A DNA stretch of 64,000 bases from Bacteroidota bacterium (lineage in GTDB: Bacteria > Bacteroidota > Bacteroidia > Chitinophagales > Saprospiraceae), in contig JAIUPL010000015.1 of the NCBI GenBank assembly GCA_020160935.1, positions 62,001 through 126,000 of the forward strand, given 5' to 3'. Made by a program: the position numbers and the translations under genes. Under the pieces are notes generated by a model that was given only the letters and a program-made list of their open reading frames with translations, ran no database searches and was not told the DNA's origin. This document shows, one piece after another, positions 26,565 to 62,194 of this stretch (the stretch's first letter is position 1; every line of letters begins with the position of its first letter).

Positions 26565-26689
26565 GAGTGAGTAGTGAGTAGTCAGTAGTGAGTAGTCAGT
26601 AGTGAGTAGTGAGTAGTCAGTAATGAAATATTGGTTATTTTATTCAACTCACTACTCACCACTCACCACTCACTACTCACCACTCACTA
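26565..26689. repeat. GTGAGTAGT-type inverted tandem repeats after ftsZ
   Basis: Units of GAGTAGTGAGTAGTCAG at 26565-26622 face ACTCACTACTCACC units at 26645-26689, with a loop of about 22 bases. The ftsZ stop codon (26687-26689) is the first base triplet of the right-hand repeat. Confidence 0.8.
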
Positions 26690-28180
26690 ATCCACGTTGT
26701 CATGTAAATACGAGTTCCCGCCCACCTTGATTTCGCCTTCGTCTTCCAGCGAAACGGTCCAGTTGGACATGCTGGGTTGTTCGGCGTCGGGCACATCGTC
26801 GAGGTTGACACTTTTGCGCAGGTATGCCGGCTGGTTTTCCAATTCGATGATGGTCTGCGGCGAACTGAGTTTCACCACATTGATCGGGCGGTTGAGGGCT
26901 TCCTGCCGGCGGCGCTGCGCATCTTCGATGCGGCGGCGGCGCTCTTCCGGTGAAATCTCGTCCTCTTCCGGATGGCGGAGGTACGGATCGCTGTTCACCG
27001 GCGTTGTACGGCGGATTTTGTCAACGGTTTCCCGGATATTGTCGAACTCGAATTCGAGCGCGGTGGCAGCCTTCTCGTCTACCGGGGAGTACGCCTCATC
27101 GGCTGTAATCGTAAAGAGAGAAGGCTGGTTCTTTTTTCCGGCGGCCTCGTCGTCGAGGTGCACCACCTGGCGTTCGTTCGGATTGGCCTGGCGTTGTACG
27201 CCCAGTCCGCCGTTTTTGCGGTCGGCCACTTCAAAGCCGGTGGCGATGATGGTGACGGCCAGTTTTTCGCCGAGGCGCTCGTCGAAGCAGTTACCCCAGA
27301 TAAGGTTGGCATTTTCGCCGGCTTTTTCCTGTACGAACTGCGTGATTTCGAAGATTTCGTCCATCGTGGCTTCCTTGGCGCCCGAGGTGATGTTCACCAG
27401 GATGTTTTTGGCGCCGAAGATGTCGTTGTCTTCGAGCAGCGGCGAACGCAGGGCTTCGTCGGCTGCACGGAACGCACGGGTTTCACCTTCTACGGTAGCC
27501 GTACCCATGATGGCGACGCCTGAACCGCGCATGGTCGTGTTTACGTCTTCGAAGTCGACGTTTACATAACCCGGTACGGTGATGATTTCAGCGATGCCTT
27601 TTGCGGCCGTGCACAGGATATTGTCGGCTTGTGCGAAGGCGGCAGAAATGCTCAGGTTGCCGTAGATGTCGCGCAGTTTGTCGTTGGAAATGATCACCAG
27701 GCAGTCTACGTTTTTGCGCAGTTCCTCCAGGCCTTCCAGGCCATTGCCCACGCGGATTTTACCTTCAAACGTGAAGGGCAAGGTGACGATACCTACGGTG
27801 AGGATACCGAGTTCCTGCGCTGCTTTGGCAATGATCGGAGCGGCGCCCGTGCCGGTGCCACCGCCCATACCGGCAGTGATGAAGGCCATTTTGGTGCCTG
27901 TTTCGAGGAAACGTTTGATTTCGTCGATGCTTTCCAGGCAAGCCTGTTTACCTACGGAAGGTTTGCTGCCCGCACCGCGGCCTTCAGTCAGCAACTGGCC
28001 GAGGGAAATTTTGGTCGGCACCGGGCTGAGTTGCATGGATTGAGCATCTGTATTGCAAATAGCGTAGTCGACACCCACGATGCCTTGTTTGTACATGTGG
28101 GTTACTGCGTTGGAGCCGCCGCCGCCAACGCCGATTATTTTGATGATGGACGGTTCGTCCTTTGGAAGATCAAATAGCAT
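26687..28180 (-). CDS. ftsZ: cell division protein FtsZ
   Basis: 497 residues. It is the tubulin-like GTPase that polymerises into the division ring. The G-box GMGGGTGTG is at 104-112, with the N-terminal IIGVGGGGSNAV at 15-25. The core ends near residue 325; the 170-residue C-terminal tail is longer than in most bacteria, charged (EEDEISPEERRRRIEDAQRRR), and ends in a conserved-looking EGEIKVGGNSYLHD. It is the last dcw gene, followed by a terminator. Normally it directly follows ftsA, but here a four-helix-bundle gene lies between them. Confidence 0.97.
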   Translation of the reverse strand: MLFDLPKDEPSIIKIIGVGGGGSNAVTHMYKQGIVGVDYAICNTDAQSMQLSPVPTKISLGQLLTEGRGAGSKPSVGKQACLESIDEIKRFLETGTKMAFITAGMGGGTGTGAAPIIAKAAQELGILTVGIVTLPFTFEGKIRVGNGLEGLEELRKNVDCLVIISNDKLRDIYGNLSISAAFAQADNILCTAAKGIAEIITVPGYVNVDFEDVNTTMRGSGVAIMGTATVEGETRAFRAADEALRSPLLEDNDIFGAKNILVNITSGAKEATMDEIFEITQFVQEKAGENANLIWGNCFDERLGEKLAVTIIATGFEVADRKNGGLGVQRQANPNERQVVHLDDEAAGKKNQPSLFTITADEAYSPVDEKAATALEFEFDNIRETVDKIRRTTPVNSDPYLRHPEEDEISPEERRRRIEDAQRRRQEALNRPINVVKLSSPQTIIELENQPAYLRKSVNLDDVPDAEQPSMSNWTVSLEDEGEIKVGGNSYLHDNVD

Positions 28181-28189
28181 AACTTTCTG

Positions 28190-28760
28190 AGTGATGAGTT
28201 ATGAGTGATGAGTTATGAGTGTTTCTCAGTAATTCCTGGGCATTGTGAATGAAAATAGACTATCCTCTTTATCGTAAGGAGTCAAGTAGTTTATTTTCTT
28301 TCCTGGTCAATATTGCACTGCGAATGATCCGCAGAAGTTCTTCAGTATCCTTTTGTATGGATTGAAAGGCTGTTTCAGTGATACAATCAGTTTGATGTAG
28401 CAATTCAAGCCAGTACAGGGTTTCATCTGCTTCCTTTTGAGCGATTCCCAACTTGTGTGAGAAATCGGCGCCACTTACTCCATTTTGGGCCTCTCTAATA
28501 TTAGCCCCGATGGAAGTGCCGGATCTCAACAGTTGTTTGCTCAAAACATATTCTTTCTTTTCTCCAACCAGATATTTATGCAAATGGACGATTCGGATTG
28601 CGAGGCTCATCGATTTTTCCCGCATGGGAGAAGGCATAAATTTTTTCATAGTTGGAGCGTGATTAATGGTAAAGAGATGGATATGAGCGTCAAATTATCG
28701 GAATGAACAAGCGTTATAGAGTACAACTCATCACTCATCACTCCTAACTCATCACTCAAA
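28190..28760. repeat. repeat-armed segment around the first four-helix-bundle gene
   Basis: GAGTGATGAGTTATGAGTGATGA at 28190-28222 (given shortened: units GAGTGATGA and GTTATGA) faces ACTCATCACTCATCACTCC at 28723-28758. The two arms are inverted and enclose the whole four-helix-bundle gene, so the 570-base segment could form one long stem with the gene in its loop, as in 23S rRNA intervening sequences. Confidence 0.7.
28269..28649 (-). CDS. four-helix-bundle protein, 23S rRNA intervening-sequence type
   Basis: 126 residues from the ATG at 28649; an ATG eight codons later (28625) would also fit the family. The family core is intact: AIRIVHLHKYLVGEKKEYVLSKQLLRSGTSIGANIREAQ, then SHKLGIAQKEADETLYWLELL (each given here as family text broken by my reading of helices 1-3). 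Members were first found as the single gene inside intervening sequences of bacterial 23S rRNA genes, and relatives serve as Avd in diversity-generating retroelements. They form barrel-shaped homopentamers that bind nucleic acid. Here it separates ftsA from ftsZ, is flanked by inverted tandem repeats, and has no rRNA nearby. Function unknown. Confidence 0.85.
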   Translation of the reverse strand: MKKFMPSPMREKSMSLAIRIVHLHKYLVGEKKEYVLSKQLLRSGTSIGANIREAQNGVSGADFSHKLGIAQKEADETLYWLELLHQTDCITETAFQSIQKDTEELLRIIRSAILTRKENKLLDSLR

Positions 28761-28762
28761 TT

Positions 28763-30094
28763 CTATTTGTTGAAGTCCACATCCGGTTCCGCCTCAAACC
28801 ATTCCTTGGTTTTGCGGAAAACGTTGTCGAACCAGGAAGCGCCTTTTTCTTCCGATACGTTGGAAGGCTCTTTCGGCTCTTCTTTGGGTGCAGACTTCTG
28901 CTCTTCTTCTACGATTTTGGCCGGGTCGAGGTCGTTCAGGCCGCGCAGCAGCAGGCCGATGGCCGTGCTGAAAATCGGACTGCTGACCCGCTCGTGGTAG
29001 CCGTGTGCCAGTTGCTCGACGGGCACTCCGATGCGGCAAGACATGCCGGTGTGGAATTCCGTGAGTTTGTCGGTATTGGCCAGTAGCGAGCCGCCGCCGG
29101 TGAGTACGATACCGCCGATGAGTTTGCGCTCGTAACCGCTGCGGCGAATTTCCCACAGCACGTAGTCGAGCACTTCTTCCATGCGCGCCTGGATGATACG
29201 GGCGAGGTTTTTCTCGCTGATCTCCTTGTGGTCGCGGCCTTTCAGGCCTGGAATCGTGATAATGCGGTTGTCGAACACCTCGTTGGCGAGGGCGGAACCG
29301 AATTTCACCTTGAGTTTTTCCGCTTGCGGTTGCATCACGGTGCAGCCTTCCTTGATGTCGGCTGTGATGACGTTGCCGCCGAAAGGAATCACGGCCGTAT
29401 GGCGAATGATGCCTTCGTGGAAAATGGTGATGTCGGTGGTGCCGCCACCGATGTCGACGAGGGCCACGCCTGCCTGTTTTTCCTCTTCCGACAGCGTCGC
29501 ATCGGCGCTGGCAATGGGTTCGAGGGTGAGGTCGGCAACCTTGAGTCCGGCTTTTTCAATGCAGCGGTAAATGTTGTTCACTGCCGTGATCTGGCCGGTA
29601 ATGATGTGGAAATTGGCTTCCAGGCGCACGCCGCACATACCGACGGGGTCGGTGATGCCCTGCTCGGAATCTACGGTGAATTCCTGCGGGAAGACATGGA
29701 TGATTTTGTCTCCCGGAGGCAGCACGAGTTTGAACATGTCGTTCACGAGGCGATCGATGTCGCGGTGTGCAATTTCCGTGTGGTCGCTTTCGCGGGTAAG
29801 GATGCCGCGGTGTTGCAGGCTTTTGATGTGCTGGCCTGCAATGCCGACGTGTACGGAGCGGAATTTCATGCCGGACTGGCGTTCGGCGATGTCCACCGCT
29901 TCGCGGATGGCATTGACTGTTTTTTCAATGTTGCTAACGACGCCACGCAGTACGCCGATGCTTTCGACTTTGCCGATACCGACAATTTCGAGTTTTCCAT
30001 GGGAGTTCCTGCGTCCTGCCAGGCAGCACACTTTCGTGGTACCGATGTCCAGAGCAACAACTACATCATGGGGTTGTGGGAGCAATTCCGTCAT
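28763..30094 (-). CDS. ftsA: cell division protein FtsA
   Basis: 443 residues, an actin-like ATPase that tethers FtsZ to the membrane. Phosphate loop DIGTTKVCCLAG at 16-27, the SHS2/1C domain after it, and the second phosphate motif VDIGGGTTDITIF near 205. LTGGGSLLAN near 330 is the adenosine motif. The C-terminus ends in WFDNVFRKTKEWFEAEPDVDFNK (shown as its key part, an amphipathic helix for the membrane). It lies between two four-helix-bundle genes, 173 and 113 bases away. The stop is 5 bases before the next tandem repeat. Confidence 0.96.
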   Translation of the reverse strand: MTELLPQPHDVVVALDIGTTKVCCLAGRRNSHGKLEIVGIGKVESIGVLRGVVSNIEKTVNAIREAVDIAERQSGMKFRSVHVGIAGQHIKSLQHRGILTRESDHTEIAHRDIDRLVNDMFKLVLPPGDKIIHVFPQEFTVDSEQGITDPVGMCGVRLEANFHIITGQITAVNNIYRCIEKAGLKVADLTLEPIASADATLSEEEKQAGVALVDIGGGTTDITIFHEGIIRHTAVIPFGGNVITADIKEGCTVMQPQAEKLKVKFGSALANEVFDNRIITIPGLKGRDHKEISEKNLARIIQARMEEVLDYVLWEIRRSGYERKLIGGIVLTGGGSLLANTDKLTEFHTGMSCRIGVPVEQLAHGYHERVSSPIFSTAIGLLLRGLNDLDPAKIVEEEQKSAPKEEPKEPSNVSEEKGASWFDNVFRKTKEWFEAEPDVDFNK

Positions 30095-30214
30095 AATGTT
30101 ATCTGTTTAAGTGGTTGAGTTTCGGTTTGGTTTTCCTTCTGCTAACGGCTCGAAACTCTTATCCGTTTGGCAAAGGTATTTTTAAAATATTTTGTTTCAA
30201 AAAAAATTTTTGTT

Positions 30215-30263
30215 GAAGAGGGTTGATGAGGTTGATAGGGTTGATGAGGTTGATAACAGTCGG
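30215..30263. repeat. GGTTGAT-type tandem repeat between ftsA and the second four-helix-bundle gene
   Basis: Units GGTTGATGA and GGTTGATAG, the same units as at 30657-30722, so the second four-helix-bundle gene is bracketed by direct copies. Inverted units follow at 30749-30875. Confidence 0.75.
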
Positions 30264-30267
30264 CGAG

Positions 30268-30636
30268 TCATGGTCTGTTTGGTTTTTTTCCACTTAGTTG
30301 GTTGATTTGATATGTCAACATTTCCAACTCAGGTCGAATTTCCAGATAATCACCGTCAGACAAATAGCCTAATTCTTTACTGATTATCAAGAGATTGATT
30401 ACTTCCACAGCGCTACCAAAAGCAATCTCATAAAACCGACTTTGATCTGCATGACTAATTCTTGCACTTCCTTCAGCCAGATTACAGCAGATCGAAACCC
30501 CTGCTCTTCTAATCTGGCTTGTCATTCCAAAAGATTCTTCCCTTGGAAAACTTTTTGTTTTTACATAAATGTTTTTTACCGCATTTTTGGCGACATGCCA
30601 TACGGCCATTTTTTCAAATGCGTACGTGTATTTCAT
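30268..30636 (-). CDS. four-helix-bundle protein, second copy in the cluster
   Basis: 122 residues from the ATG at 30636 (MKYTYAFEKMAVWHVAKN). The frame runs open 38 codons further upstream, but that part is translated from tandem repeat (Ser/Thr/Asn-rich) and should be ignored. The family pattern is clear: FEKMAVWHVAKNAVKNIYVKT, MTSQIRRAGVSICCNLAEGSAR, then FYEIAFGSAVEVINLLIISKELGYL. It belongs to a different subgroup from the copy at 28.4 kb (FEK..VW start, NLAEGSAR instead of NIREAQ), so the two are not recent duplicates. It separates ftsQ from ftsA. Confidence 0.85.
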   Translation of the reverse strand: MKYTYAFEKMAVWHVAKNAVKNIYVKTKSFPREESFGMTSQIRRAGVSICCNLAEGSARISHADQSRFYEIAFGSAVEVINLLIISKELGYLSDGDYLEIRPELEMLTYQINQLSGKKPNRP

Positions 30637-30656
30637 AGGATTAGATTGTTTAAATG

Positions 30657-30875
30657 AAGGTGTTGGGTTGTTGGTTGATAGGGTTGATAGGGTTGATGAG
30701 GTTGCTGAGGTTGATATTGAATGATTTATAAAAAATAAAATGTTCAGCATACCTCATCAACTCTTATCAACTCTTATCAACTCTATCAACCTCATCAACT
30801 CTATCAACCTCATCAACCCTATCAACCCTATCAACCCTATCAACCCTCATCAACCCTATCAACCTCATCAACCCT
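30657..30875. repeat. GGTTGAT / ATCAACC hairpin with tandem arms before ftsQ's stop
   Basis: GGTTGATAGGGTTGATGAGG units (30665-30722) and inverted CATCAACCCTATCAACC units (30749-30875), with the 26-base loop TTGAATGATTTATAAAAAATAAAATG between them. The ftsQ stop is inside the right-hand repeat. Confidence 0.85.
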
Positions 30876-31644
30876 ACCTCCGACAAACCACCTGCCCGCT
30901 ATACTTCAAATTGATCGTCTCATATTTCCGCCAGCCTTCATACGGCATTCCTTCCTGGTAAAAAATCTTCAGTCGGTCCAGTTTGTCGTCGAGTCGGCGG
31001 GTGCTTCCCAGAACAATCTTTTGGTCGCCGATCAGCGGCACGAGGATAAACTCGCCTGCGTTGTTCACATGAATCTGCTGAATAAAAGAAGCCGTGAAGT
31101 CGTCTTTCAGCAGGGTTTGGGTCAGATTAAAAAGGTCTTTGAGGCTGCTTTTTTTCTTTTTCAAAAACTCCGGTGTGTATGCCGAAATGTTGCCAGTAGC
31201 CACCAACACCCGCGCTGCGAAGTTTTTGGAAGCAGGCATTTTGGCGCCATTGCGGTCGAGGTAATAGTTGCCGCCATTGTTGTCGAGCACACGCACCAGG
31301 GGTTCGCGCTGGGTAATGGTCATATGCAGTACATTGTGCTGATCCACATACGCTTCGGCATCCAGCACAAACGGGTCTTCTTCGAGCACGCGTTCCATTC
31401 GTTCCACTTCCAGCAAGGCCAGTTCGGTGCCTTCGAGCGTGTTGCCGAAAGAGCGCAGCAACGCCTGCCGCACATCCCGCTCGCTGATGAGTTTGTCGCC
31501 GCTTTCCAGCGGGATGACCACGACTTCCACGCCGTCGGCAAAACTGTTTTTCTTTTTGCCAATTGCCGAATACAGGATCACCGCCACGAGTACCAGAAAG
31601 GCAACCCAGGCGAAGCGATCGTATCGGAGGTGTGGCAAATTCAT
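30874..31644 (-). CDS. ftsQ: cell division protein FtsQ/DivIB-like
   Basis: 256 residues. One membrane span at about 11-27 (FAWVAFLVLVAVILYSAI) after a short cytoplasmic start, then a POTRA-like part (LISERDVRQALLRSF...LEEDPFVLDAEAYVDQHNVLHMTITQREPLVRV, cited in pieces) and a beta domain with YLDRNGAKMP. The pattern is FtsQ, although overall similarity in Bacteroidota is low. It links the early and late division proteins (FtsB/FtsL complex) in the periplasm. It starts 36 bases after murC, as usual in the phylum. Confidence 0.88.
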   Translation of the reverse strand: MNLPHLRYDRFAWVAFLVLVAVILYSAIGKKKNSFADGVEVVVIPLESGDKLISERDVRQALLRSFGNTLEGTELALLEVERMERVLEEDPFVLDAEAYVDQHNVLHMTITQREPLVRVLDNNGGNYYLDRNGAKMPASKNFAARVLVATGNISAYTPEFLKKKKSSLKDLFNLTQTLLKDDFTASFIQQIHVNNAGEFILVPLIGDQKIVLGSTRRLDDKLDRLKIFYQEGMPYEGWRKYETINLKYSGQVVCRR

Positions 31645-31683
31645 TTTGTTATTAGTTATTGGTTATTGGTTATTAGGGTATTA
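31645..31683. repeat. TTATTGG tandem repeat at the murC stop
   Basis: TTATTAGTTATTGGTTATTGG units (in pieces) between ftsQ and murC. On the coding strand the murC TAA stop is followed at once by TAATAACC units. Similar TTATTGGTTATCGG repeats are at 44.9 kb and 62.04 kb. Confidence 0.7.
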
Positions 31684-33057
31684 ATGCTTGGGATTTGTGG
31701 TTAGCAAGTTTTTGATGGGTTCTATGAGCGTGTCAATATCGCCGGCGCCCATGGTCATCAGCACTTGTATGTCTTTGGTTTTGAGGAGGTTGAGCAGATC
31801 TTTTTTATTAATGAGGTTTACGTTCGGGTTTTTCATCAGGTTGGCGATGGTAGCCGATGTGATGCCCGGAATAGGTTGTTCGCGGGCCGGGTAGATGTCG
31901 AGCAGGATGCATTCATCCAACAGATCGAGCGCTGCTGCAAATCCTTCGGCAAAATCGCGGGTGCGCGTAAACAGGTGCGGCTGAAAAATGCCGGTAATCT
32001 TCCGGTCTGGATACAGCATTTTGGCGGCGCTGATTGCGGCTTCCAGTTCGGCCGGATGGTGCGCATAATCGTCGATGTACACCACATCCTGGCGGCGAAC
32101 GATGTATTCAAAACGGCGTTTCACCCCCTGGAACCCTGCTACCGCCACACCAAGCAGTTCGGAAAAACCGCCCGCCGACAAAGTGGCAGCGATGGCCGCA
32201 GTAGCATTCAGTACATTGTGTTTGCCAGGGTAATTCAGCCTGAAATCGCTCCAGTCAAAAATGGTCGAATGCAGTCCGAATGCCATTTGGCCTTCTACTA
32301 CGCGCACGCTAAATGCCTCATAATCACCCTCTTCGATGCCAAAACTGAAGGCCTGGCGTCCGCTGGCCCGGAGTTCTGCCACCACATCTTCGATAGGCAG
32401 ACCGTACCGGTAAATCAATTTGCCGCCGGGTTTGATTTGGCGGATAAATTGCTTGTACGATTCCACTACTGCTTCTTCGGTGCCATATATATCGAGGTGG
32501 TCGGGGTCGATCGAGTTTAGCACGGCAATTTCCGGGTGCAGGTGCAGGAAACTGCGGTCGTACTCGTCGGCTTCCACCACTACCCAGTCGCTGGTACCTT
32601 CCACAAAATTGCTGCCGAGGTTGAGCGAAATGCCACCTACGAAAGCCGTCGCATCGATGCCGCAGGCCCGCATGAGGTGGCTGGTCATGGTGCTGGTGGT
32701 GGTTTTGCCATGGGTGCCAGCGATGGCGATGCAGCGTTTGGCGCGGCTGATGATGCCCAATACTTCTGCGCGTTTTTTTATGGGGTAGCCGCGTTCCAGG
32801 AACCAGTTCAGTTCGGCGTGGTCTTTTGGAACGGCAGGCGTAAACACCACCAGGTCGACATTTTCAGGAATGAACGCTACGTCATCTTCATAATGAATGT
32901 GCATCCCCTCGGCGGCCAGCGACCGCGTCAGGTCGGTTTCGGTACGGTCGTAGCCATGCACCTCCGCGCCGTGCAGGCGGAAGTAGCGGGCCAGGGCCGA
33001 CATTCCGATGCCGCCAATGCCTATGAAGTAGATTTTTTTGATCGCGTTGAATTCCAT
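31681..33057 (-). CDS. murC: UDP-N-acetylmuramate--L-alanine ligase
   Basis: 458 residues, the usual Mur ligase length. It adds L-Ala to UDP-MurNAc using ATP. Rossmann start YFIGIGGIGMSALA at 10-23; ATP-binding GTHGKTT at 114-120; the MurC-typical segments VVEADEYDRSFLHLHPEIAVL and DDYAHHPAELEA are intact. The last residues end in TTNPKH and the stop runs into a tandem repeat. It is 24 bases downstream of a small lipoprotein gene that separates it from murG. Confidence 0.96.
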   Translation of the reverse strand: MEFNAIKKIYFIGIGGIGMSALARYFRLHGAEVHGYDRTETDLTRSLAAEGMHIHYEDDVAFIPENVDLVVFTPAVPKDHAELNWFLERGYPIKKRAEVLGIISRAKRCIAIAGTHGKTTTSTMTSHLMRACGIDATAFVGGISLNLGSNFVEGTSDWVVVEADEYDRSFLHLHPEIAVLNSIDPDHLDIYGTEEAVVESYKQFIRQIKPGGKLIYRYGLPIEDVVAELRASGRQAFSFGIEEGDYEAFSVRVVEGQMAFGLHSTIFDWSDFRLNYPGKHNVLNATAAIAATLSAGGFSELLGVAVAGFQGVKRRFEYIVRRQDVVYIDDYAHHPAELEAAISAAKMLYPDRKITGIFQPHLFTRTRDFAEGFAAALDLLDECILLDIYPAREQPIPGITSATIANLMKNPNVNLINKKDLLNLLKTKDIQVLMTMGAGDIDTLIEPIKNLLTTNPKH

Positions 33058-33081
33058 GTCGTTGCGGGTTTGTCTTCCGGT

Positions 33082-33444
33082 TTATTTGCGGGCCAGTTTC
33101 AGGGTTTCTTTTTGTCCGCCTCGGTTCATTTCAAAATCGAGTGCTTTATCGTTGATTGTGAGCATTTTCACCATAATCTCCTGTTTTCCGGTTTCCTGGG
33201 TGTAGAGTTTGTCTTTTTCAGTGCGCCAGGTGCCCGATTGTTTCTGGTCACCGAACTGAGCGGAATACGTGCCATCTTCCTTGAATTCGAAGCCTACCTG
33301 TGCCGCATTCATGCCACTGGGTTTATCAAAAATGAGCCATTCCGTACCTTGCCATTGGCCAATAAGCAGCGGGTTTTTGTCATTGGCTTTCTGGCAGGCG
33401 GTCAGTCCGAGGCTTATGATGGCAATTAGAAATAAGTGTTTCAT
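33082..33444 (-). CDS. small lipocalin-like lipoprotein inside the dcw cluster
   Basis: 120 residues from the ATG at 33444 (MKHLFLIAIISLGLTACQ), with a lipobox LTAC; the frame opens 12 codons earlier without signal character. The rest is all beta: GQWQGTEWLIF, VGFEFKEDGTYSAQFGDQKQSGTWRTEKDKLY, LDFEMNRGGQKETLKLARK (in pieces), the pattern of lipocalin-like or DUF4488-type proteins of Bacteroidota. Outer-membrane or periplasmic. It is not a standard dcw gene; it lies 19 bases after murG and 24 before murC, so it is co-transcribed with them. No role known. Confidence 0.7.
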   Translation of the reverse strand: MKHLFLIAIISLGLTACQKANDKNPLLIGQWQGTEWLIFDKPSGMNAAQVGFEFKEDGTYSAQFGDQKQSGTWRTEKDKLYTQETGKQEIMVKMLTINDKALDFEMNRGGQKETLKLARK

Positions 33445-33463
33445 TTTATTGATTTTAAATGGT

Positions 33464-34624
33464 TTAGGATTTTTCATCATTTTCTTTTGGTGGTTTCCGG
33501 CGCGAAGGCCTTCGGGTGCTTGACGGCCCTTTTGCCAGCGCTATGGCTTCACCTGCAATCGCATCAGCGGCATTGGGCCTTCCCATTTGGCGGATGCTTT
33601 CACTCAGGCTGAACGACAATGCTTCGTTTTCGAGCACCAGCAAGGCTTCGTGCAGCATTTTCTCCGAGGCTTCCACATCGCGTACCAGCCGGGCAGCACC
33701 TTTTTCCACCAGCGCCAGGGCATTTTTGGTTTGATGGTCTTCGGCCACATTGGGCGAAGGCACCAGGATTGCCGGTTTTCCAACCAGGCACAACTCGCTG
33801 ATACTCAATGCTCCTGCGCGTGAAATCACTACATCGGCGGCGGCATACAACAGATCCATACGGTCTATAAAAGCCCGAAGGTGCACATTGGGGAGTCGGG
33901 CCGTTTCGCATTCTGCATATTGCAGTTCGTAAAACTTGCCGCATTGCCACAGCACCTGAATGCCATCGTATTTTTCAAAAAAAGCAGTGTTTTCCTGCAT
34001 GGCATTGTTGAGCGTCCGCGCGCCGAGGCTGCCTCCGATCACCACAACTGTTTTTTTCCCGGCATCCAGTCCATAGTACGCCAATCCTTCCTCGCGTTTT
34101 CCATCCAGATCGAGGATATCGGAACGCACGGGGTTTCCGGTAAAAACGATGCGTTCAGCCGGAAAAAAGGCATCCATATGGTCGTAAGCCACGCATATTT
34201 TCCCGGCTCTTTTGCCGAGGAGTTTATTGGTGACGCCCGCGTAGGAATTCTGCTCCTGAATCAGCGTCGGAATGTCCATGCGCTGGGCGCTCCGCATCAC
34301 TGGTCCGCTGGCGTAACCGCCTGTGCCGATTACTACATCGGGACCAAATTTTTCCACAATCCGGCGGGCTTTTACCATGCTGCTCAGCAGTTTGAACGGG
34401 AATGAGAGGTTGCGCAAACTCATACTCCGTTGAAAACCCGCCACATTCAGCCCTTCAATCGGGTAGCCTGCTTTGGGTACCCGTTCCATCTCCATTTTTC
34501 CCACGGCGCCGACGAACAGGAACTCTGTTTCGGGCAGCACCTTTTTTATAGCGTCTGCGATCGCGATGGCCGGAAAAACGTGTCCGCCGGTACCGCCGCC
34601 TGTGATCATTACTTTTAGGTTCAT
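33464..34624 (-). CDS. murG: UDP-N-acetylglucosamine--N-acetylmuramyl-(pentapeptide) pyrophosphoryl-undecaprenol GlcNAc transferase
   Basis: 386 residues from the ATG at 34624 (MNLKVMITGGGTGGHVFP); an ATG three codons earlier lies in repeat sequence. It makes lipid II from lipid I on the inner face of the membrane (GT28 family). The UDP-GlcNAc loops GGGTGGH at 9-15 and the second one, VVIGGSLGART near 190, are intact. The GALSISELCLVGKPAILVPSP block that holds the donor site is at about 270-290. Gene ends with a basic tail. It abuts an 87-base direct repeat upstream. Confidence 0.95.
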   Translation of the reverse strand: MNLKVMITGGGTGGHVFPAIAIADAIKKVLPETEFLFVGAVGKMEMERVPKAGYPIEGLNVAGFQRSMSLRNLSFPFKLLSSMVKARRIVEKFGPDVVIGTGGYASGPVMRSAQRMDIPTLIQEQNSYAGVTNKLLGKRAGKICVAYDHMDAFFPAERIVFTGNPVRSDILDLDGKREEGLAYYGLDAGKKTVVVIGGSLGARTLNNAMQENTAFFEKYDGIQVLWQCGKFYELQYAECETARLPNVHLRAFIDRMDLLYAAADVVISRAGALSISELCLVGKPAILVPSPNVAEDHQTKNALALVEKGAARLVRDVEASEKMLHEALLVLENEALSFSLSESIRQMGRPNAADAIAGEAIALAKGPSSTRRPSRRKPPKENDEKS

Positions 34625-34627
34625 TTG

Positions 34628-34800
34628 TAACACGGATTACGCAGATTTTTTACGGATTTTCACGGATTGGATCGGTGGAAATCCCTGGAATTTGCGATGA
34701 TTGGATACAGTTTGCAACACGGATTACGCAGATTTTTTACGGATTTTCACGGATTGGATCGGTGGAAATCTTTGGAAATTGCGGTGATTGGATTTGACAG
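34628..34800. repeat. 87-base direct duplication with CACGGATTACGCAGATT units
   Basis: Two copies of an 87-base unit (34628-34714 and 34715-34800), nearly identical, each holding CACGGATTACGCAGATT, ACGGATTTTCACGG and GGATCGGTGGAAAT. Inverted units (AATCCGTGTAATCCG) follow at 35268-35322 on the other side of the GxxExxY gene. Repeats of this CGGATTACGCAGATT kind are common near GxxExxY genes in Bacteroidota, to my knowledge. Confidence 0.8.
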
Positions 34801-34801
34801 T

Positions 34802-35200
34802 TCATGGTTCTTGGGGGATTTTTTTGCGGTTATTGGTGAATATGGTTCTTTCAAATTCGGGCTTTATTCCAAAGTTGAGCACAAAACCGAGTTCGATCGG
34901 CATGGCCCTGAGGTAGTGAAGTAATTGCGCTTCATGTTCCCCTTTTATCGTCGCCTGGGCTTTTAATTCCAGTATTATTTTTCCTTCCACCAGCAAATCC
35001 GCTCTGTATTTTCCCATCAACATTCCTTTATAGAGTACAGAGATTGGTTTTTCTTCTTCTACCAGAAGGCCCATTTCCTGCAACTCATACAGCAGTGCCT
35101 TTTGATAAATCCGTTCCCGAAAGCCATATTTCAATTGGTTATACACCTCGTAAAAGGCTTTCAAAATCTTGTCTGTCAGTTCTTTGTGTAAAATTTCCAT
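34802..35200 (-). CDS. GxxExxY protein (PDDEXK_3-like)
   Basis: 132 residues. The name motif GFRERIY is at 26-32 (G26, E29, Y32). The nuclease-like core reads YRADLLVEGKIILELKA, that is D68 and E78-x-K80, the arrangement of PD-(D/E)xK enzymes. The C-terminus ends with VLNFGIKPEFERTIFTN, typical of the family. The family is common in Bacteroidota, often with many copies per genome, and is predicted to bind or cut nucleic acid; no function has been shown to my knowledge. It separates ftsW from murG and is enclosed by inverted CGGATT repeats. Confidence 0.85.
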   Translation of the reverse strand: MEILHKELTDKILKAFYEVYNQLKYGFRERIYQKALLYELQEMGLLVEEEKPISVLYKGMLMGKYRADLLVEGKIILELKAQATIKGEHEAQLLHYLRAMPIELGFVLNFGIKPEFERTIFTNNRKKIPQEP

Positions 35201-35324
35201 ATTAGATGAAGCGATGTTTGATGTTTGTTTTTCAATCGATTAAAAAATACGCATCCCCCCAAAATCCGTACAAATCAAAATCCGTGTAATCCGTATTCCA
35301 TCCGCGCAATCCGTGTTTCACGTT
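35201..35324. repeat. inverted CGGATT repeats between ftsW and the GxxExxY gene
   Basis: AAAATCCGTACAAATC, AAAATCCGTGTAATCC and CGCGCAATCCGTGTTTCACG, complementary to the CACGGATTACGCAGATT units at 34628-34800. The pairing would enclose the GxxExxY gene in a loop. Confidence 0.7.
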
Positions 35325-36458
35325 TCACTCTAGGCTTTCAATATACTTACTCACACTCAATATCATTCCCAGCGCGATACTCGTAAACAGCATACTCGTT
35401 CCGCCCATTGAAATCATGGGCAGGGTGAGACCGGTAGCCGGTACGAGGTTGACATTCACCGCGATATTAGCCAGCGCCTGCACCGTGAGCATCAGGCTCA
35501 GGCCGATGGCCAGGAAAGCGCCGAATGCTTTGGGGCTTTTGGTAACGAGTTTTACGTTTCGGATAAACAGCATCACATACAGCACCAGGATGGTAGCCCC
35601 ACCGATGAGGCCGTATTCTTCACAAATGATGGCATAAATGAAGTCGGCATTGCAATAGGGCAGGTAATTGCGCATCATGCTGTTGCCGGGGCCTTCACCG
35701 ATAATGCCGCCTTTGGCAATAGCGATTTTGGCCTGCTGCACCTGAAATCCGCCGTCTTCGCTGTTGAGGAAGGTATCTACCCGCGAAATCCAGGTATCTA
35801 CCCGAATCAGGCCCGATTCCGGATACAATTGCCCGAAAGCAATCATGCCTGCAAACACCACCACTCCCAGCAGTCCGAGCAGGAAAATGTACTGCCAACT
35901 CACGCGACCCATAAACATGAGCAAAATGCAGGTCACGAACAGCAGCAGCGAGGTACTCAGGTTGGCTGGCGCAATGAGACCACAAATGATCAGCACCGGC
36001 ACGATGATCGGCAGGAAGGCATCGCGGAAACTGCTGATGTAATCCTGTTTGCGCGTCAATTCGCGTGCGATGTAGATAATCAGGGCAATTTTGGCAAATT
36101 CCGAAGGCTGGAAACTGAATCCGGCAAAACTGATCCATCGATTGGCGTCGTTGATGTTTTGTCCGAAAAACAGCGTGAAAGCCAGCAGCGGCACAGCCAG
36201 CAGCATCAGGAATGGCGCCGCTTGCTGGTACCTGCGGTAGTGCATCAGGTGGCACACATACACCAAAAACAACCCAAAACCCAGCCGCACGGTATGCGAC
36301 AGCAGGAACACCGTGGTATTGCCGCCGTGGCCCGTCCAGGCTGCCCAGCCCGACGCCGAATACACGGCCAGCATACTGAAAAGGCTCAGTACGGCGATGA
36401 TCATCCAGATGGTACGATCGCCCCGAAGTTCTGCTGCTATGCGGTTGCCGAGTGACAT
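35325..36458 (-). CDS. ftsW: lipid II polymerase/flippase-type protein FtsW
   Basis: 377 residues with about ten hydrophobic spans, of the SEDS family. It polymerises glycan strands together with FtsI at the septum. The signature is present: SFQPSEFAKIALIIYIA near 114, NLSTSLLLFVTCILLMFMG, and the terminal VPATGLTLPMISMGGTSMLFTSIALGMILSV region (in pieces). Position between murD and murG is the usual one for ftsW rather than rodA. It is separated from murD by a lipoprotein gene and from murG by a GxxExxY gene. Confidence 0.95.
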   Translation of the reverse strand: MSLGNRIAAELRGDRTIWMIIAVLSLFSMLAVYSASGWAAWTGHGGNTTVFLLSHTVRLGFGLFLVYVCHLMHYRRYQQAAPFLMLLAVPLLAFTLFFGQNINDANRWISFAGFSFQPSEFAKIALIIYIARELTRKQDYISSFRDAFLPIIVPVLIICGLIAPANLSTSLLLFVTCILLMFMGRVSWQYIFLLGLLGVVVFAGMIAFGQLYPESGLIRVDTWISRVDTFLNSEDGGFQVQQAKIAIAKGGIIGEGPGNSMMRNYLPYCNADFIYAIICEEYGLIGGATILVLYVMLFIRNVKLVTKSPKAFGAFLAIGLSLMLTVQALANIAVNVNLVPATGLTLPMISMGGTSMLFTSIALGMILSVSKYIESLE

Positions 36459-36490
36459 TTTAGTGAGTGGTGAGTAGTGAGTAGTGAGTG

Positions 36491-36492
<2 letters not shown>
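36459..36492. repeat. GTGAGTAGT tandem repeat between the lipoprotein and ftsW
   Basis: GTGAGTGGTGAGTAGTGAG on the plus strand in the 32-base gap. The lipoprotein stop on the minus strand is followed at once by CACTCACTACTCAC. Confidence 0.7.
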
Positions 36493-38653
<2,161 letters not shown>

Positions 38654-38664
38654 ATTGATTTTTT

Positions 38665-38760
38665 TAGCCCGCTTGCGCGGGTGATTTTTTTGGCTCCCGC
38701 TTGCGCGGGAGGTTTACTTGGATTTTGCGGATCGGGCGGATTTTTGGGATTTTGATTTTT
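38665..38760. repeat. CCCGCTTGCGCGGG repeats and CGGATCGGGCGGATT arm, before the degraded GxxExxY gene
   Basis: Two copies of CCCGCTTGCGCGGG (38668-38681 and 38696-38709) and then TTTTGCGGATCGGGCGGATT (38723-38742). The second arm AATCCGCCCGATCCGCAAAA, its exact inverse, is at 39174-39193 and is followed by CCCGCGCAAGCGGGG. The whole gene is thus enclosed. Confidence 0.85.
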
Positions 38761-39133
38761 TATGGAAGGTTTTTTCGTTCGTTGCTCCAGGTTTTTCGTT
38801 GAAATTTGGGTTCCAGTCCAAAATTGAGCAGGAGCCCTACTTCTATGTTTGTGGCTTTCAGGTAGTTGATGAGTTGTTTTTCATGTGCTTCTGTCAGGGT
38901 TGCAACGGCTTTCAGTTCTACAATTACTACCTCGTTTATCAAGAGGTCTGCATAATAACTGCCAACCAACCGCCCCTTTCGGTACACTTTGATGCCTTTT
39001 TGAGATTCCACTTTTAGCCCCCGGCTGAGTAATTCAAAATACATCGCATTGTGATATACCCTTTCGAGAAAACCAAATCCCAAATCATTGCGCCGATCAC
39101 CTGTTGAGTGATCTCACTGAACTTGAGTTCCAT
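38760..39133 (-). pseudogene. GxxExxY protein, frameshifted
   Basis: The N-terminus starts at the ATG at 39133 (MELKFSEITQQVIGA) in one frame and the rest continues in another (NDLGFGFLERVYHN...YYADLLINEVVIVELKA) to the stop at 38760. Compared with the family, about four residues (the normal helix end before the NDLGFGF segment) are missing where the frame changes, near 39085-39090. This points to a small deletion. The GFLERVY motif and the D...ExK core are otherwise intact, so the break is recent. If the frameshift is real the protein is not made. It separates mraY from murD. Confidence 0.75.
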
Positions 39134-39159
39134 AAATGAAGATGTTTGATTATGAATAG

Positions 39160-39222
39160 AAAAAATCAATAAAATCCGCCCGATCCGCAAAATCCACGAC
39201 CCTCTCCCGCGCAAGCGGGGAT
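39160..39222. repeat. inverted arm matching 38723-38742
   Basis: AATCCGCCCGATCCGCAAAA, exact inverse of the arm before the GxxExxY gene, then CCCGCGCAAGCGGGG close to the mraY stop (39223). Confidence 0.8.
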
Positions 39223-40482
39223 CTATCGAATCTTAAGAGTAATCACCGTCAGCACCGCCAACAACACCTGCACAATCCAGAACCGCACCGAAATCGTCAC
39301 CTCATGGTATCCCTGTTTCTGGTAGTGGTGGTGCAGCGGGGCCATCAAAAACACCCGGCGGCCTTCTCCGTATTTGCGTTTGGTGTATTTGAAATACCAC
39401 ACCTGAATGATCACCGACAGGCTTTCTATGAGGAACACGCCACACAGCAGCGGAATCAGCAGTTCCTTGCGCAGGATGATCGCCATGGAAGCGATGATAC
39501 CACCCAGGGTAAGGCTGCCCGTATCGCCCATAAATACCCGCGCCGGAAACACGTTGTACCACAGAAATCCGAAACATCCGCCCAGCAGACAGGCCGCGAA
39601 AATCACCAGTTCGCCACTGTACGGGATGTACAGAATTTTCAGAAAATCAGCCGCTACCGAGTTGCCGCTCAGATAAGCCAGTATGCCCAGCGCCGTGATG
39701 ACAATGGCCGAAACCCCTGCCGCCTGTCCGTCGAGGCCGTCGGTCAGGTTGGCGCCATTACTGACTGCTGTGATGACCAGAATAGCCATGATGACAAACA
39801 AAATAGAACTCAGGTCGCGGGCATTGTCGCCGAGAAACCACAACAGCCGCGAATAGTCGAGTTCGTTGTTTTTGAAAAACGGCACATTGGTAATCGGCGC
39901 TTTCACATACACCATTTCCCTGTAGGAATTGGGTGCAGTGTTGTCTTTCACAAACAGGTTCTCGGTCACATGGTATCCGCCGGCTTCGGCCACTTTGGGG
40001 TCCATACGCACCACTACTTCGTCACTCATCAGCATCGTAACGCCCACAATCAGTCCCAAACCTACCTGCCCCATCACCTTGAAAATACCTTTCAGCCCTT
40101 TCTTATCCTTTTTGAACACCTTGATGTAGTCGTCGACAAACCCGATAGCGAACATCCACAGGGTGCTGAAGATCATCAGCACGATATATACATTGTCGAG
40201 CCGGGCCATCAATAGGCATGGAATCAATGTAGCCGCAATGATGATAATGCCGCCCATGGTTGGTGTGCCCGCCTTGGAAGTTTGGCCTGCCAGCCCCAGA
40301 TCGCGTACGGTTTCACCGATTTGCAGGGTCTGCAGCCAGCGAATAATCCGTTTGCCGATGATCATGGAGATCAGCAGCGACAGTACCATCGCCACACCTG
40401 CACGGAAGGAGATGTACTGAAACAACCCGGCCCCGGGCAGGTCGTACGTTTTCTTCAGGTATTCAAAAAGATAGTACAGCAT
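39223..40482 (-). CDS. mraY: phospho-N-acetylmuramoyl-pentapeptide transferase
   Basis: 419 residues, longer than the about 360 of many bacteria, as usual in Bacteroidota where an insert of 60 residues follows the fourth helix. It moves phospho-MurNAc-pentapeptide to undecaprenyl phosphate and makes lipid I. About ten spans. The catalytic segments are clear: [19 protein letters not shown] (64-82), FVDDYIKV near 116 and [16 protein letters not shown] near 245, with [11 protein letters not shown] near the end. The 338-base gap to murE upstream is the largest in the cluster. Confidence 0.96.
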
Positions 40483-44473: not shown

Positions 44474-44584
44474 GGTGAGTGGTGAGTGGTGAGTAGTGAG
44501 TGGTGAGTGATGAGTAGTGAGTGGTGAGTAATGAGTGGGAGTGTTTTACTGACTACTCACTACTCACTACTCACTACTCACTAC
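44474..44584. repeat. GTGAGTGGTGAGTAGT inverted tandem repeats, ftsL-ftsI gap
   Basis: GTGAGTGGTGAGTAGTGAG units at 44476-44537 face ACTACTCACTACTCAC units at 44551-44584. The ftsL TAG stop is the first triplet of the right-hand repeat. Confidence 0.8.
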
Positions 44585-44889
44585 TTGATTTCAATCACTT
44601 TAGGTCCTTTATTCTCCAGATCAAGTCCGACGGGTTCGAGGCTTTCGTCCATCTGACTTTGCATGGATTTGTACATGGTTTCACTTTTGATGGAAGTGTA
44701 TTCCCATTTCAGTTCCTTGATTTCTTTTTGGATGCGCTGGATGTCGCGTACGTTTTTTTCGGCGAAATGCGCATTGGCGATGTACACGATGCCCAGGAAA
44801 CCCAGGAAAAGCAGGTACGAAAAGTTGCCGAATACCAGTTCAGTCGTTTTGTGACTGACATTGAATGCTGCAAGCAGTTTGTTCGCCAT
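44581..44889 (-). CDS. FtsL-like small division protein
   Basis: 102 residues: a short cytoplasmic start, one membrane span at about 22-42 (FSYLLFLGFLGIVYIANAHF), then a coiled coil with regular heptads (VRDIQRIQKEIKELKWEYTSIKSE). Size, topology and position between rsmH and ftsI are those of FtsL, the scaffold that joins FtsQ and FtsB at the division site. Sequence similarity across phyla is low, so the name rests on position and topology. Confidence 0.85.
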   Translation of the reverse strand: MANKLLAAFNVSHKTTELVFGNFSYLLFLGFLGIVYIANAHFAEKNVRDIQRIQKEIKELKWEYTSIKSETMYKSMQSQMDESLEPVGLDLENKGPKVIEIK

Positions 44890-44894
44890 TTTTT

Positions 44895-45001
44895 GTTATC
44901 AGTTAATGGTTATTAGTTATCAGGGGTTCATTATCAAGCATTTGCAGTTTCCCTACTCACTACTCACCACTCACCACTCACTACTCACCACTCACCACTC
45001 A
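44895..45001. repeat. TTATTAG and GTGAGTGGTGAG repeats in the rsmH-ftsL gap
   Basis: TTATCAGTTAATGGTTATTAG (44896-44918, in pieces) and ACTCACCACTCACTACTCACC units (44955-45001). The rsmH stop (TGA on the minus strand) begins the second repeat. Confidence 0.75.
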
Positions 45002-45907
45002 CTTCTTTTTAGCAATTCTCAGTTTCGAACTTCTCGCGCGGTTATTCACTTTGAGTTCCGCTTCGGAGGGTTCTATCGGTTTTTTCGTGATCAGTTCCCA
45101 GGGACGTGTGATGTTTCCATAAAAATCCTTGTCCAGTTCGCCTTCCACGTTGCCCGCTTTCATAAAATTCTTCACCATACGGTCTTCCAGCGAGTGGAAG
45201 GTGATGACTGCCAGCCGACCGCCGGGCGCCAGCATTTCATAGGCATCTTTCAGGAAATCGTGCAATGCACCCAGTTCGTCGTTCACTTCCATGCGCAGCG
45301 CCTGAAACACCTGCGAGAGGTAGCGCATGCGTTCGCCCATCAGGTGCTGTTCGCAGAAATCCGTCAGGTCGCCCGTCGTTTGAAAAGGCCTGATATCGCG
45401 GCTGCGCACCACGGCTTGTGCCAGTGTGCGGGCGTTGCGTACTTCGCCGAGTTCGCTAAACATGCGTTGCAGCGCTTCCGCATCGTAGGTATTCAGCACA
45501 TCGGCGGCTGTTGGGCCTTCCTGCCGGTTCATGCGCATATCCAGATCGGCCTGAAAACGGTAGGAAAATCCGCGTTCGGCCGTATCGAGTTGGTAACTGC
45601 TTACACCGAGGTCGGCCAGAATGCCTTGCACTGAACCGGGCCGTATGGCTTCTGCGCGCAATTGCCTTTTGAGGAAACGGAAATTGGAGTGCAGGAACGT
45701 GAAAGCCGGCTCGTGGGCGAATTCTGCTGCATTTTGTGCAGCATCGGTATCCTGGTCGAATGCATACAGGTGGCCTTTGCCACGCAGTTGTTCAAGAATG
45801 AGGCGCGTGTGACCGCCGCCACCGAACGTAGCATCCACGTAGATACCGCCGGGTGTAACACCCAGAGCATCAACAGATTCGTGAAGAAGAACAGACGCGT
45901 GGTACAT
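44999..45907 (-). CDS. rsmH: 16S rRNA (cytosine(1402)-N(4))-methyltransferase
   Basis: 302 residues from the ATG at 45907 (MYHASVLLHESVDALG), the start typical of the family; the frame runs open 22 codons upstream but without similarity. It methylates N4 of C1402 in 16S rRNA using S-adenosylmethionine. The SAM loop is YVDATFGGGGHT at about 24-35, and the segments ILADLGVSSYQLDTAERGFSYR and LDMRMNR are the standard ones. The end AKKK runs into the repeat. It is 68 bases after mraZ. Confidence 0.95.
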   Translation of the reverse strand: MYHASVLLHESVDALGVTPGGIYVDATFGGGGHTRLILEQLRGKGHLYAFDQDTDAAQNAAEFAHEPAFTFLHSNFRFLKRQLRAEAIRPGSVQGILADLGVSSYQLDTAERGFSYRFQADLDMRMNRQEGPTAADVLNTYDAEALQRMFSELGEVRNARTLAQAVVRSRDIRPFQTTGDLTDFCEQHLMGERMRYLSQVFQALRMEVNDELGALHDFLKDAYEMLAPGGRLAVITFHSLEDRMVKNFMKAGNVEGELDKDFYGNITRPWELITKKPIEPSEAELKVNNRARSSKLRIAKKK

Positions 45908-51312: not shown

Positions 51313-51477
51313 ACAACTGCTCGCCTGTACGATTCTCAAGGCACTTTGCTGCGAGAATGGCCGGTAACGGCGGAAAACCACGCCCCTGTTCGCCTCGATT
51401 TGTCGGGCATTCCGGGTGGCCGGCATTTTTTGTGGGTGAATGGGAAAGGGTATCAAGTCCTAAGTCCTAAGTCCTGA
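51313..51477 (+). pseudogene. rest of the sorting domain after the in-frame stop
   Basis: The same frame after the TAA reads TTARLYDSQGTLLREWPVTAEN...VRLDLSGIPGGRHFLWVNGKGYQ, the usual end of a T9SS type A domain, then LSPKS and a stop encoded by the repeat that begins at 51455. The final strand (normally ending in a Lys/Val-rich motif) is missing. This suggests a nonsense mutation, and separately that the repeat replaced the last few residues. Confidence 0.7.
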
Positions 51478-51589
51478 GTCCTGAGTCCGTAGAGTAGACC
51501 TGATTACCCTCGGTATCTATTAATAGGATGCCAAGACTAATCAGGTGTACTCTACGGACTTAGGACTTAGGACTCAGGACTTAGGACTT
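51455..51589. repeat. family A hairpin with AAGTCCTAAGTCC arms, second copy
   Basis: Left arm AAGTCCTAAGTCCTGAGTCC then CCGTAGAGTAGACC (to 51500); right arm is the inverse (51539-51589). Inner loop GGTATCTATTAATAGGATGCCAAG matches the loop at 2.4 kb. It starts inside the read-through frame of the T9SS protein. Confidence 0.85.
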
Positions 51590-52718: not shown

Positions 52719-52862
52719 GAAGTGTTGAGAAGTGTTGAGAAGTTGAGGGTTGAGAAGTTGAGATATTTACTTTCGGCATTCATTATTGAGTAGCCAAAAG
52801 TAAATGTCTCAACTTCTCAACCCTCAACTCCTCAACTTCTCAACCCTCAACTCATCAACCCT
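52715..52862. repeat. GTTGAGAAG inverted tandem repeats
   Basis: GTTGAGAAGTGTTGAGAAG units (52715-52763) face CTCAACTTCTCAACCC units (52806-52862). Inside, ATTTACTTTCGGC and GCCAAAAGTAAAT pair as well, so the whole segment can form one long hairpin between the desaturase and the symporter gene. Confidence 0.8.
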
Positions 52863-57824: not shown

Positions 57825-58004
57825 TTTCCCGCAGATTTGCGCAGATTTTCCCGCAGATCTCGCTGAGCGTAGAGTAGTTTCCCGCAGATCGCGCAGATTT
57901 TCCCGCAGATCGCGCAGAACGTAGAGTACACTTAGAGTACACATTTTGATCGCTTTGAAAAAATAGGCATACTCTACGTTCTGCGAGATCTGCGGGAAAC
58001 TACT
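57825..58004. repeat. family A hairpin with CCCGCAGATCGCGCAGA arms, second copy
   Basis: Arms at 57825-57935 (two sets of units, then AACGTAGAGTACAC) and 57970-58004 (inverse). The loop ATTTTGATCGCTTTGAA is nearly the same as at 6.47 kb. It begins about 6 bases after the stop of the fusion gene. The rest of the gap to parE (58005-58259) is AT-rich with AAATTTTTTGTTTTAAAAATAAAATTTTTG-like runs and no gene. Confidence 0.85.
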
Positions 58005-62024: not shown

Positions 62025-62194
62025 CGTTTTGTTATCCGTTATTGGTTATCGGTTATCAGGGGGTGTACATCTGGCATCTATGGTGAGTATCACATAGTCG
62101 GCACTCGCCTTGAAATCTGCGAGCAGGTTGTATATCTGGCATTTATGGAGAGTGTCCAAAATAGTATGTCAAGCCAAATTTTGTAACATTTTTT
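62025..62194. other. gap with TTATTGGTTATCGG repeat
   Basis: TTATCCGTTATTGGTTATCGG (62033-62057, in pieces) next to the small membrane protein start, then unstructured sequence with GGTGTACATCTGGCAT and TTGTATATCTGGCATT as a loose direct pair. No gene. Confidence 0.4.

Follow-up and report, generated by a model that had tools for sequence, protein, structure and literature searches.

REPINs are extragenic hairpins of two inverted repeats that occur in many gene-less copies and fall into distinct families, each found beside its own distinctive gene; according to the relevant sections of PMC3116915, these RAYT genes are distant paralogues and largely follow species descent while the repeats multiply. 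In the 23S rRNA intervening sequence (IVS) of Coxiella, 7-nt repeats precede an S23p gene (section on the IVS in PMC4990558). PF05635 proteins resemble Avd, an accessory protein called essential for retrohoming, that is, for copying repeat onto repeat (as outlined in PMC10053308). Finally, direct repeats of the 7-nt unit TAACTGA are described from Beggiatoaceae, Cyanobacteria and Bacteroidetes, with no evident transfer mechanism, in PMC4679880, the main text of which lacks the terms four helix and S23. Here we analysed a 64,000-nt stretch of a Saprospiraceae genome (hereafter the window; positions 62,001 to 126,000 of contig C33, JAIUPL010000015.1, of the 5.84-Mb genome G000), whose dcw cluster contains four extra small genes in inverted repeat arms. 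G-numbers denote genomes, L-numbers loci and W the window copy in pairwise comparisons. In a contig search, the murC of the organism was 87% and 75% identical to those of Saprospiraceae metagenome-assembled genomes (MAGs). The small dcw genes and the repeat kinds that go with them hint at a self-spreading element of a new kind, and a search of the open-access literature found no paper linking S23/IVP or GxxExxY proteins with palindromic repeats.

Two of the four extra genes encode S23/IVP four-helix-bundle proteins and two encode GxxExxY proteins. All have the same orientation, as an earlier note on this DNA had stated; it is that of the dcw cluster, and each is enclosed by inverted arms of 33-58 nt. 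IVP1 (28269..28649, minus strand) lies in the ftsA-ftsZ interval, between an arm of GAGTGAT/GAGTTAT units (28188..28244) and an opposite arm (28702..28758) that are 79% complementary over 57 nt. IVP2 (30268..30636, minus strand; likely start at 30636, the open reading frame (ORF) being open to 30750) occupies the ftsQ-ftsA interval, with a single arm of GGTTGATGA-type units on its 3′ side (30212..30255) and a hairpin on its 5′ side (30654..30889). The 3′ arm pairs with stretches inside 30784-30875, in the outer part of the 5′ hairpin, while 30654-30716 and 30802-30868 form a nested hairpin. GxxExxY1 (34802..35200, minus strand), in the ftsW-murG interval, has a CACGGATTACGCAGATT arm (34626..34658) with a second copy at 34713-34745, both of which are 79% complementary over 33 nt to the opposite arm (35288..35320); the earlier note had described the inverted pairs correctly and overlooked this duplication. 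GxxExxY2 (38760..39083, minus strand), in the mraY-murD interval, stands between arms at 38696..38753 (CCCGCTTGCGCGGG plus GCGGATCGGGCGGATT) and 39162..39219 that are 84% complementary over 58 nt. By eye, the 5′ end of this gene is disrupted relative to its G016 relative, which amends an otherwise sound description of the genes and arms.

As a bracketing score, the 500 nt to the left of a gene were matched to the reverse-complemented 500 nt on its right. The window cassettes scored 33 (IVP1), 36 (IVP2), 23 (GxxExxY1) and 40 (GxxExxY2). The whole genome encodes 10 IVP and five GxxExxY genes, 11 of which score 23-102 and four 10-14. Such values are rare among controls: of 3688 N-free anchors from 400 kb of the same genome, 15 reached 18, six reached 22 and none 30, and among 68 non-overlapping ORFs 100-200 aa long, one reached 18 and none 22. 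The inverted bracketing reported earlier was thereby borne out for all four cassettes. At the genus level the test covered 39 of 210 IVP and 34 of 118 GxxExxY matches (summed per-genome counts), namely all 15 own genes plus the best locus of 29 genomes per family. Two IVP loci and one GxxExxY locus were excluded as truncated at a contig end; a score of 18 was reached by 31 of 37 evaluable IVP loci (28 reached 22) and by 26 of 33 evaluable GxxExxY loci (23 reached 22). For the phylum, 30 loci per family were taken from other genera, one per genome and best-scoring rather than randomly drawn; among these, 12 IVP and 17 GxxExxY loci reached 18, compared with 10 of 350 swapped pairs.

The arms of the cassettes belong to large families of hairpins that mostly lack a gene. 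A survey of 484 kb from this genome, with a seed and a score limit of at least 22, counted 86 inverted repeats, or about one per 5.6 kb; the counts are a lower bound, the survey having missed the GxxExxY1 arms of the window. In 82 of the 86 the loop is shorter than 200 nt, too short for a gene, and one of the 81 repeats outside dcw has a 930-nt loop. The midpoints of 78 of these 81 hairpins fall outside ORFs of at least 150 aa, even though such ORFs make up about 0.89 of the sample. Thus, many extragenic hairpins of two inverted repeats, a REPIN-type trait, are present here. Sixty-one of the hairpins outside dcw match sequence within 400 nt of an IVP or GxxExxY gene of the same genome, compared with a mean of 35.8 for random sets of 15 small genes, which reached 61 in three of 2000 draws. 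When matches to both flanks of one gene were demanded, 49 of the 81 hairpins still matched one of eight IVP/GxxExxY cassettes, whereas two of 68 small genes qualified and no draw of 15 genes exceeded two hairpins. Counted by gene, one-sided matches were found for 10/15 cassettes and 29/68 control genes, and two-sided matches for 8/15 and 2/68, respectively. That is, the fair control of 68 small genes shrinks the one-sided contrast and leaves the two-sided one. IVP1, IVP2 and GxxExxY1 of the window all have matching hairpins elsewhere in the genome. The clearest cassette is L003, where a complete hairpin of the AGTCC family is followed by an IVP gene and a second complete hairpin, the IVP stop codon falling in the first unit of the latter. 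An alignment of 28 AGTCC hairpins revealed covariation, in that 15 of 42 pairs had changed on both sides.

The two proteins go with different repeats. In the genus, the IVP arms repeat themselves at a lag of 7 nt (mean self-match 0.55, 31 cassettes) and the GxxExxY arms at a lag of 9 nt (mean 0.38, 26 cassettes); the 7-nt lag was noticed at this stage, before the phylum loci were looked at. The GxxExxY arms of the genus served as the model for a word, C[AG]C[AG][AG]A[GT]. Within 300 nt, the phylum loci had an average of 5.80 converging words for GxxExxY genes, against 0.47 in shuffled sequence, and of 0.43 for IVP genes; at least four words were present at 26/30 GxxExxY and 0/30 IVP loci (P 6e-12), a count that was not blind, as the word was fixed only after the phylum arms were visible. 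The top lag was 7 in 23/30 IVP and 2/30 GxxExxY loci of the phylum. In the genus, at least four words were found at 18/34 GxxExxY and 0/39 IVP loci, and a top lag of 7 at 22/39 IVP and 1/34 GxxExxY loci. These contrasts favour each protein having its own repeat grammar, 7-nt units for IVP and converging words for GxxExxY. The 7-nt rule is a strong tendency rather than a law, since several IVP-type families have units of 8-10 nt, and a classifier combining lag 7 and the word left 45 of the 81 hairpins without a class.

Inverted 7-nt arrays also occur outside the Bacteroidota. The plasmid sample comprised four of 20 IVP records, all cyanobacterial, and four of eight GxxExxY records. The arm scores of the four cyanobacterial IVP loci were 27, 29, 17 and 12, including 27 for Nostoc and 12 for Scytonema. 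In Anabaena sp. 90 the IVP gene lies between cas6 and cas4 with inverted GGTGACA arms (score 29), and in Picosynechococcus between cas10 and a cmr3-family gene with inverted GGAGATA arms (score 17); the IVP genes in the CRISPR operons (L427, 1501-1869; L428, 1501-1857) are thus flanked by inverted 7-nt arrays. IVP genes in cas loci have been reported before (listed in PMC3936711), and this listing may reflect insertion rather than a role in CRISPR.

Bracketing alone is not specific to these families. In addition to the four cassettes correctly given by the earlier note, the cluster contains a gene-less hairpin 3′ of ftsZ (26569..26692) with arms of GAGTAGT-type 7-nt units, as well as an ftsL-like gene (named by position; within 44528-44949) with GAGTGGTGAGTAG arms on both sides (44475..45002). 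A complete hairpin lies between this gene and ftsI, so that an ordinary gene is caught between hairpins. Genes outside the IVP and GxxExxY families can thus have such arms as well. The hairpins could be multiplied by another transposase, a RAYT, slippage or template switching, the IVP and GxxExxY genes being passengers that were trapped and kept for some other function. The bracketed ftsL-like gene and the hairpins near 29 of the 68 ordinary genes are in line with this, the genome encodes two Y1_Tnp (PF01797) proteins, and slippage easily yields 7-nt units. The two-sided matching (8/15 against 2/68) speaks against it, and a protein-specific word grammar across the phylum would be unexpected for a passenger; on balance we regard trapping as unlikely.

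IVP1 and IVP2 match PF05635/TIGR02436 (E 1.1e-26 to 9.4e-30), and the structure of a close relative of IVP1 has been solved (2rld, E 1.5e-34). GxxExxY1 and GxxExxY2 match PF13366/TIGR04256 (E 7e-33 to 1.9e-36, PF13366 above cut-off), so that the family assignments made earlier stand for all four genes. A sequence search of the PDB with GxxExxY found no relative. The residues D68, E78 and K80, forming the D and ExK motif, are invariant in 34/34 sequences and are present in GxxExxY1 (model pLDDT 90.3). By profile and motif residues, GxxExxY is a predicted nuclease of the PD-(D/E)XK superfamily, within which our best guess is a Cas4-like fold. Both families are widespread and often multi-copy, S23/IVP being found in 232 and GxxExxY in 151 of 296 sampled phylum genomes, and to our knowledge neither has a settled function. 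The proteins are under selection, as nonsynonymous divergence (dN) is well below synonymous divergence (dS), several dS values being saturated: dN was 0.045 and dS 0.412 for IVP1 (W vs G043), 0.159 and 1.479 for IVP2 (W vs G006), and about 0.08 against 1.5-2.6 for the remaining 104 codons of GxxExxY2 (G006, G016 and G047).

The earlier note had suggested that the design of rRNA intervening sequences spread to protein operons and that the cassettes may cut the dcw mRNA. Stems with a gene inside do exist outside rRNA here; their arms, however, proved to be members of large gene-less hairpin families. If the cassettes act as RNA, RNase III would cut the stem, and the protein would be a by-product or a stem-binder. 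As RNA, each of the four window cassettes is predicted to fold with its arms paired, and better so than shuffled sequences (z −7.2, −8.2, −15.2 and −3.5), and the GxxExxY arms have an excess of G-U over A-C mismatches (112 vs 74, P 0.003). Furthermore, RNase III cleaves the Coxiella IVS, whose loop contains the S23p gene, in vitro (experiments in PMC4990558). On the other hand, the IVP arms show 56 G-U and 73 A-C mismatches, without the excess expected under RNA pairing, and in the AGTCC hairpins, where a hand count of the pair table gave 22 G-U and 25 A-C cells, G-U is not favoured, which suggests that the palindrome is maintained as DNA rather than by pairing in RNA. The common sense orientation of the four window genes is a tendency only in the larger set: among cassettes between co-directional neighbours (93 loci, crude ORF calls), 35 are sense, as an RNA element would favour, and 16 of the 51 are antisense. 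Moreover, cutting of RNA alone leaves the gene-less hairpin families and the two grammars unexplained, and we hold it to be improbable as the main account.

Comparison with relatives indicated that the four genes are not found at the same sites in all of them. The ftsA loci of 30 genus genomes were compared, a few being too short to include both neighbours. An IVP gene is present in the ftsA-ftsZ interval of seven genomes (G000, G043, G047, G006, G052, G023 and G050) and in the ftsQ-ftsA interval of six (G000, G016, G047, G006, G007 and G042), with a fragment in G052. G016, whose FtsA is 97% identical, has an 82-nt gap at the ftsA-ftsZ site, and G043, with 99% identical FtsA, is without IVP2. 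GxxExxY occurs in the ftsW-murG interval also in G016 and G022, and in the mraY-murD interval also in G016, G006 and G047. By eye, several gene-free dcw sites carry hairpins with other words. In the MAG G006, two contigs (L147 and L254) differ at ftsQ-ftsA, one having a cassette and the other a single remaining arm. This pair is a candidate for polymorphism within a population or for two strains in one bin, the latter being possible because the junction flanks are 96% and 85% identical.

Thus, the sites vary among relatives, as expected for the mobility that had been proposed; the gene copies at dcw sites nevertheless mostly form clades across genomes. In the IVP tree, which has long branches and a bootstrap that had not settled, one clade (100/99) unites the copies found at ftsQ-ftsA in six genomes with a G051 copy located on a different contig, and four of the ftsA-ftsZ copies cluster (87/97); the IVPs of the window's genome are distant paralogues. 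Since dcw copies group by site, old sites at which genes are gained and lost are a better fit than free hopping. Judged from the tree, the genes appear to be long established and to have been lost in places, the G051 copy being one hint of movement, and it is the hairpins more than the genes that seem to spread.

The window also contains gene-less hairpins outside the dcw genes discussed above, some of which differ from those at the matching places in G043 when compared by eye. Two belong to the AGTCC family (2339..2477 and 51455..51589), and no hairpin was seen at the place matching the second in G043. A TTGAGAAG hairpin (52712..52853) matches the IVP cassette L001, and the same site in G043 has a hairpin of other words. 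The hairpin with CGCAGATC-type words (57899..57999) matches the flank of GxxExxY gene L012 and has a similar counterpart at the same site in G043. Hairpins of further families (GGTATGGACTTTAGTCC; CCTTGTCGTCCTGACGGGA) lie at 19496-19660, 60261-60377 and 62178-62346 and matched no IVP or GxxExxY flank of the genome; G043 has another hairpin at the place of 60261 and another repeat at that of 62178. Host-useful structures, that is, terminators or mRNA-stability elements bound by IVP and GxxExxY as regulators, could account for the intergenic position of 78 of the 81 hairpins and for pairing kept by covariation. The AGTCC family is limited to close relatives (5/42 genus genomes), though, and different families occupy the same site in G000 and G043, which fits selfish turnover better, so that we consider such a host role very improbable.

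The reading that we prefer, at a probability of roughly 0.55, is that these are palindrome families of the REPtron/REPIN kind, of which the cassettes are gene-bearing members, and in which the protein is an Avd-like bundle or a PD-(D/E)XK protein rather than a Y1 transposase. Each family would be a hairpin, as a rule 100-250 bp long, whose arms consist of short words in tandem; most copies would be gene-less and intergenic, and a few would flank or enclose a small gene, the role of resident being filled by either of two unrelated proteins, S23/IVP or GxxExxY. The resident protein may recognise folded single-stranded nucleic acid by the array of words typical of its own family, and it may assist in placing further copies of the hairpin at new positions between genes. 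GxxExxY might contribute DNA cutting or trimming, and IVP might act, like Avd, as a chaperone of copying done by other enzymes. The gene-bearing copy would persist by supplying the protein, and the protein genes would mostly stay at old sites and sometimes be lost.

Several observations weigh against the preferred reading. Ordinary small genes also have hairpins nearby (29/68), mostly on one side; 20 of the 81 hairpins match no cassette of the genome; and five of the 15 IVP/GxxExxY genes, including GxxExxY2 of the window (L015), match no hairpin. Inverted bracketing is weaker at the phylum level than in the genus, and we know of no catalytic activity of IVP. The four plasmid GxxExxY loci, two of which are from Bacteroidota, carry 3, 3, 0 and 4 words and have arm scores of 13, 18, 15 and 20, so that the word rule is unproven beyond the sampled set. 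In a syntenic block (C20/C143), three gene-less AGTCC hairpins and a cassette occupy the same places in G000 and G043, and these unchanged positions mean that the AGTCC family may be old and quiet. Alignments of G000 and G043 revealed no target duplication, no excision and no clean empty site or single insertion; what they contained were replaced sites, hairpins present in both genomes and an array that differed in length by 47 nt.

Co-occurrence in relatives is likewise mixed. The AGTCC hairpin was matched in 5/42 genus genomes (top 20 candidates each), with many matches in G000, G043 and G006 and weak, partial ones in G047 (14) and G016 (3). An AGTCC-matching IVP of at least 70% identity was found in G000, G043, G006 and G016 and in no other genus genome, G047 being the exception with weak hairpin matches and no matching IVP hit. 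The IVP is 93% identical in G043, with hairpins at most 89% identical over their length, and 73% in G006, with hairpins at most 79%. As the five genomes are close relatives, this co-occurrence is suggestive only. The match between cassettes and hairpins within one genome was weak in G009 (4/11) and G022 (3/14), which have few hairpins; between genomes, G000 cassettes matched 0/11 hairpins of G009 and 2/14 of G022, and the G009 and G022 cassettes matched 2/80 and 6/80 hairpins of G000, respectively. The word not being blind, the weak G016 and G047 matches and the hairpin-less GxxExxY2 all lower the weight of single lines of evidence, while the two-sided match and the contrast between IVP and GxxExxY keep theirs.

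A more far-reaching version, which we put forward only tentatively and think more doubtful than the preferred reading, is that S23/IVP and GxxExxY are specific mobilisers of two palindrome classes in Bacteroidota and beyond. Working without a transposase, an Avd-like pentamer or a Cas4-like nuclease would copy hairpins of its own words, folded as DNA or RNA, into intergenic sites, and rRNA intervening sequences, IVPs in cas operons and cyanobacterial 7-nt repeats might be facets of the same system.

Some further observations concern individual loci. A GxxExxY gene on a Persicobacter plasmid (L432) has GGATTGAAAGGATT-like arms that by eye resemble own hairpins left unassigned (L016 7262, L028 4209, L030 5235 and L034 2866), and by this resemblance those hairpins may also be of the GxxExxY type. 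A RAYT was tried as mobiliser and rejected, its flanks matching none of 105 pooled hairpins tested, 80 of which were from this genome. Between a lipocalin-like gene and murC, G043 (L349, 1650-2480) and G006 (L147, 3101-3890) have an insertion of about 770-790 nt; by eye, that of G043 resembles a nucleotidyltransferase/HEPN-type pair.

Among known systems, the 23S rRNA intervening sequence resembles two of the four cassettes in that a long stem has a PF05635 gene in its loop, and the Coxiella IVS shares the 7-nt repeats. Unlike it, the present cassettes lie between protein genes and are accompanied by gene-less hairpin families; an Rfam search of the window gave no match, and the cassettes are not in 23S rRNA. 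The TAACTGA repeats are similar in being intergenic arrays of a 7-nt unit with a patchy distribution, and differ in being nearly all direct rather than inverted. A fixed link between protein and repeat words would supply a candidate agent for such intergenic 7-nt repeats, for which PMC4679880, in its account of them, gives no evident mechanism of spread. The likeness to Avd of the diversity-generating retroelements is drawn on the protein, PF05635 resembling Avd, and for GxxExxY the near systems are Cas4 and other PD-(D/E)XK nucleases. A fixed link between protein and word would give S23/IVP and GxxExxY a testable job. A parallel exists with REPINs and RAYTs: gene-less extragenic hairpins are numerous in both cases, and here too each family may go with a resident gene of its own, the genes seeming mostly to keep to their sites and the repeats to multiply. 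The Y1 resident that defines a REPtron is absent from these cassettes: a RAYT is a Y1 tyrosine transposase, whereas the residents here are PF05635 bundles or PF13366 PD-(D/E)XK proteins, and the arms consist of arrayed words of 7 or about 9-10 nt. If the preferred reading is true, it would explain how essential operons such as dcw gather small inserted genes, and the REPIN way of life would have arisen with proteins other than Y1 transposases.

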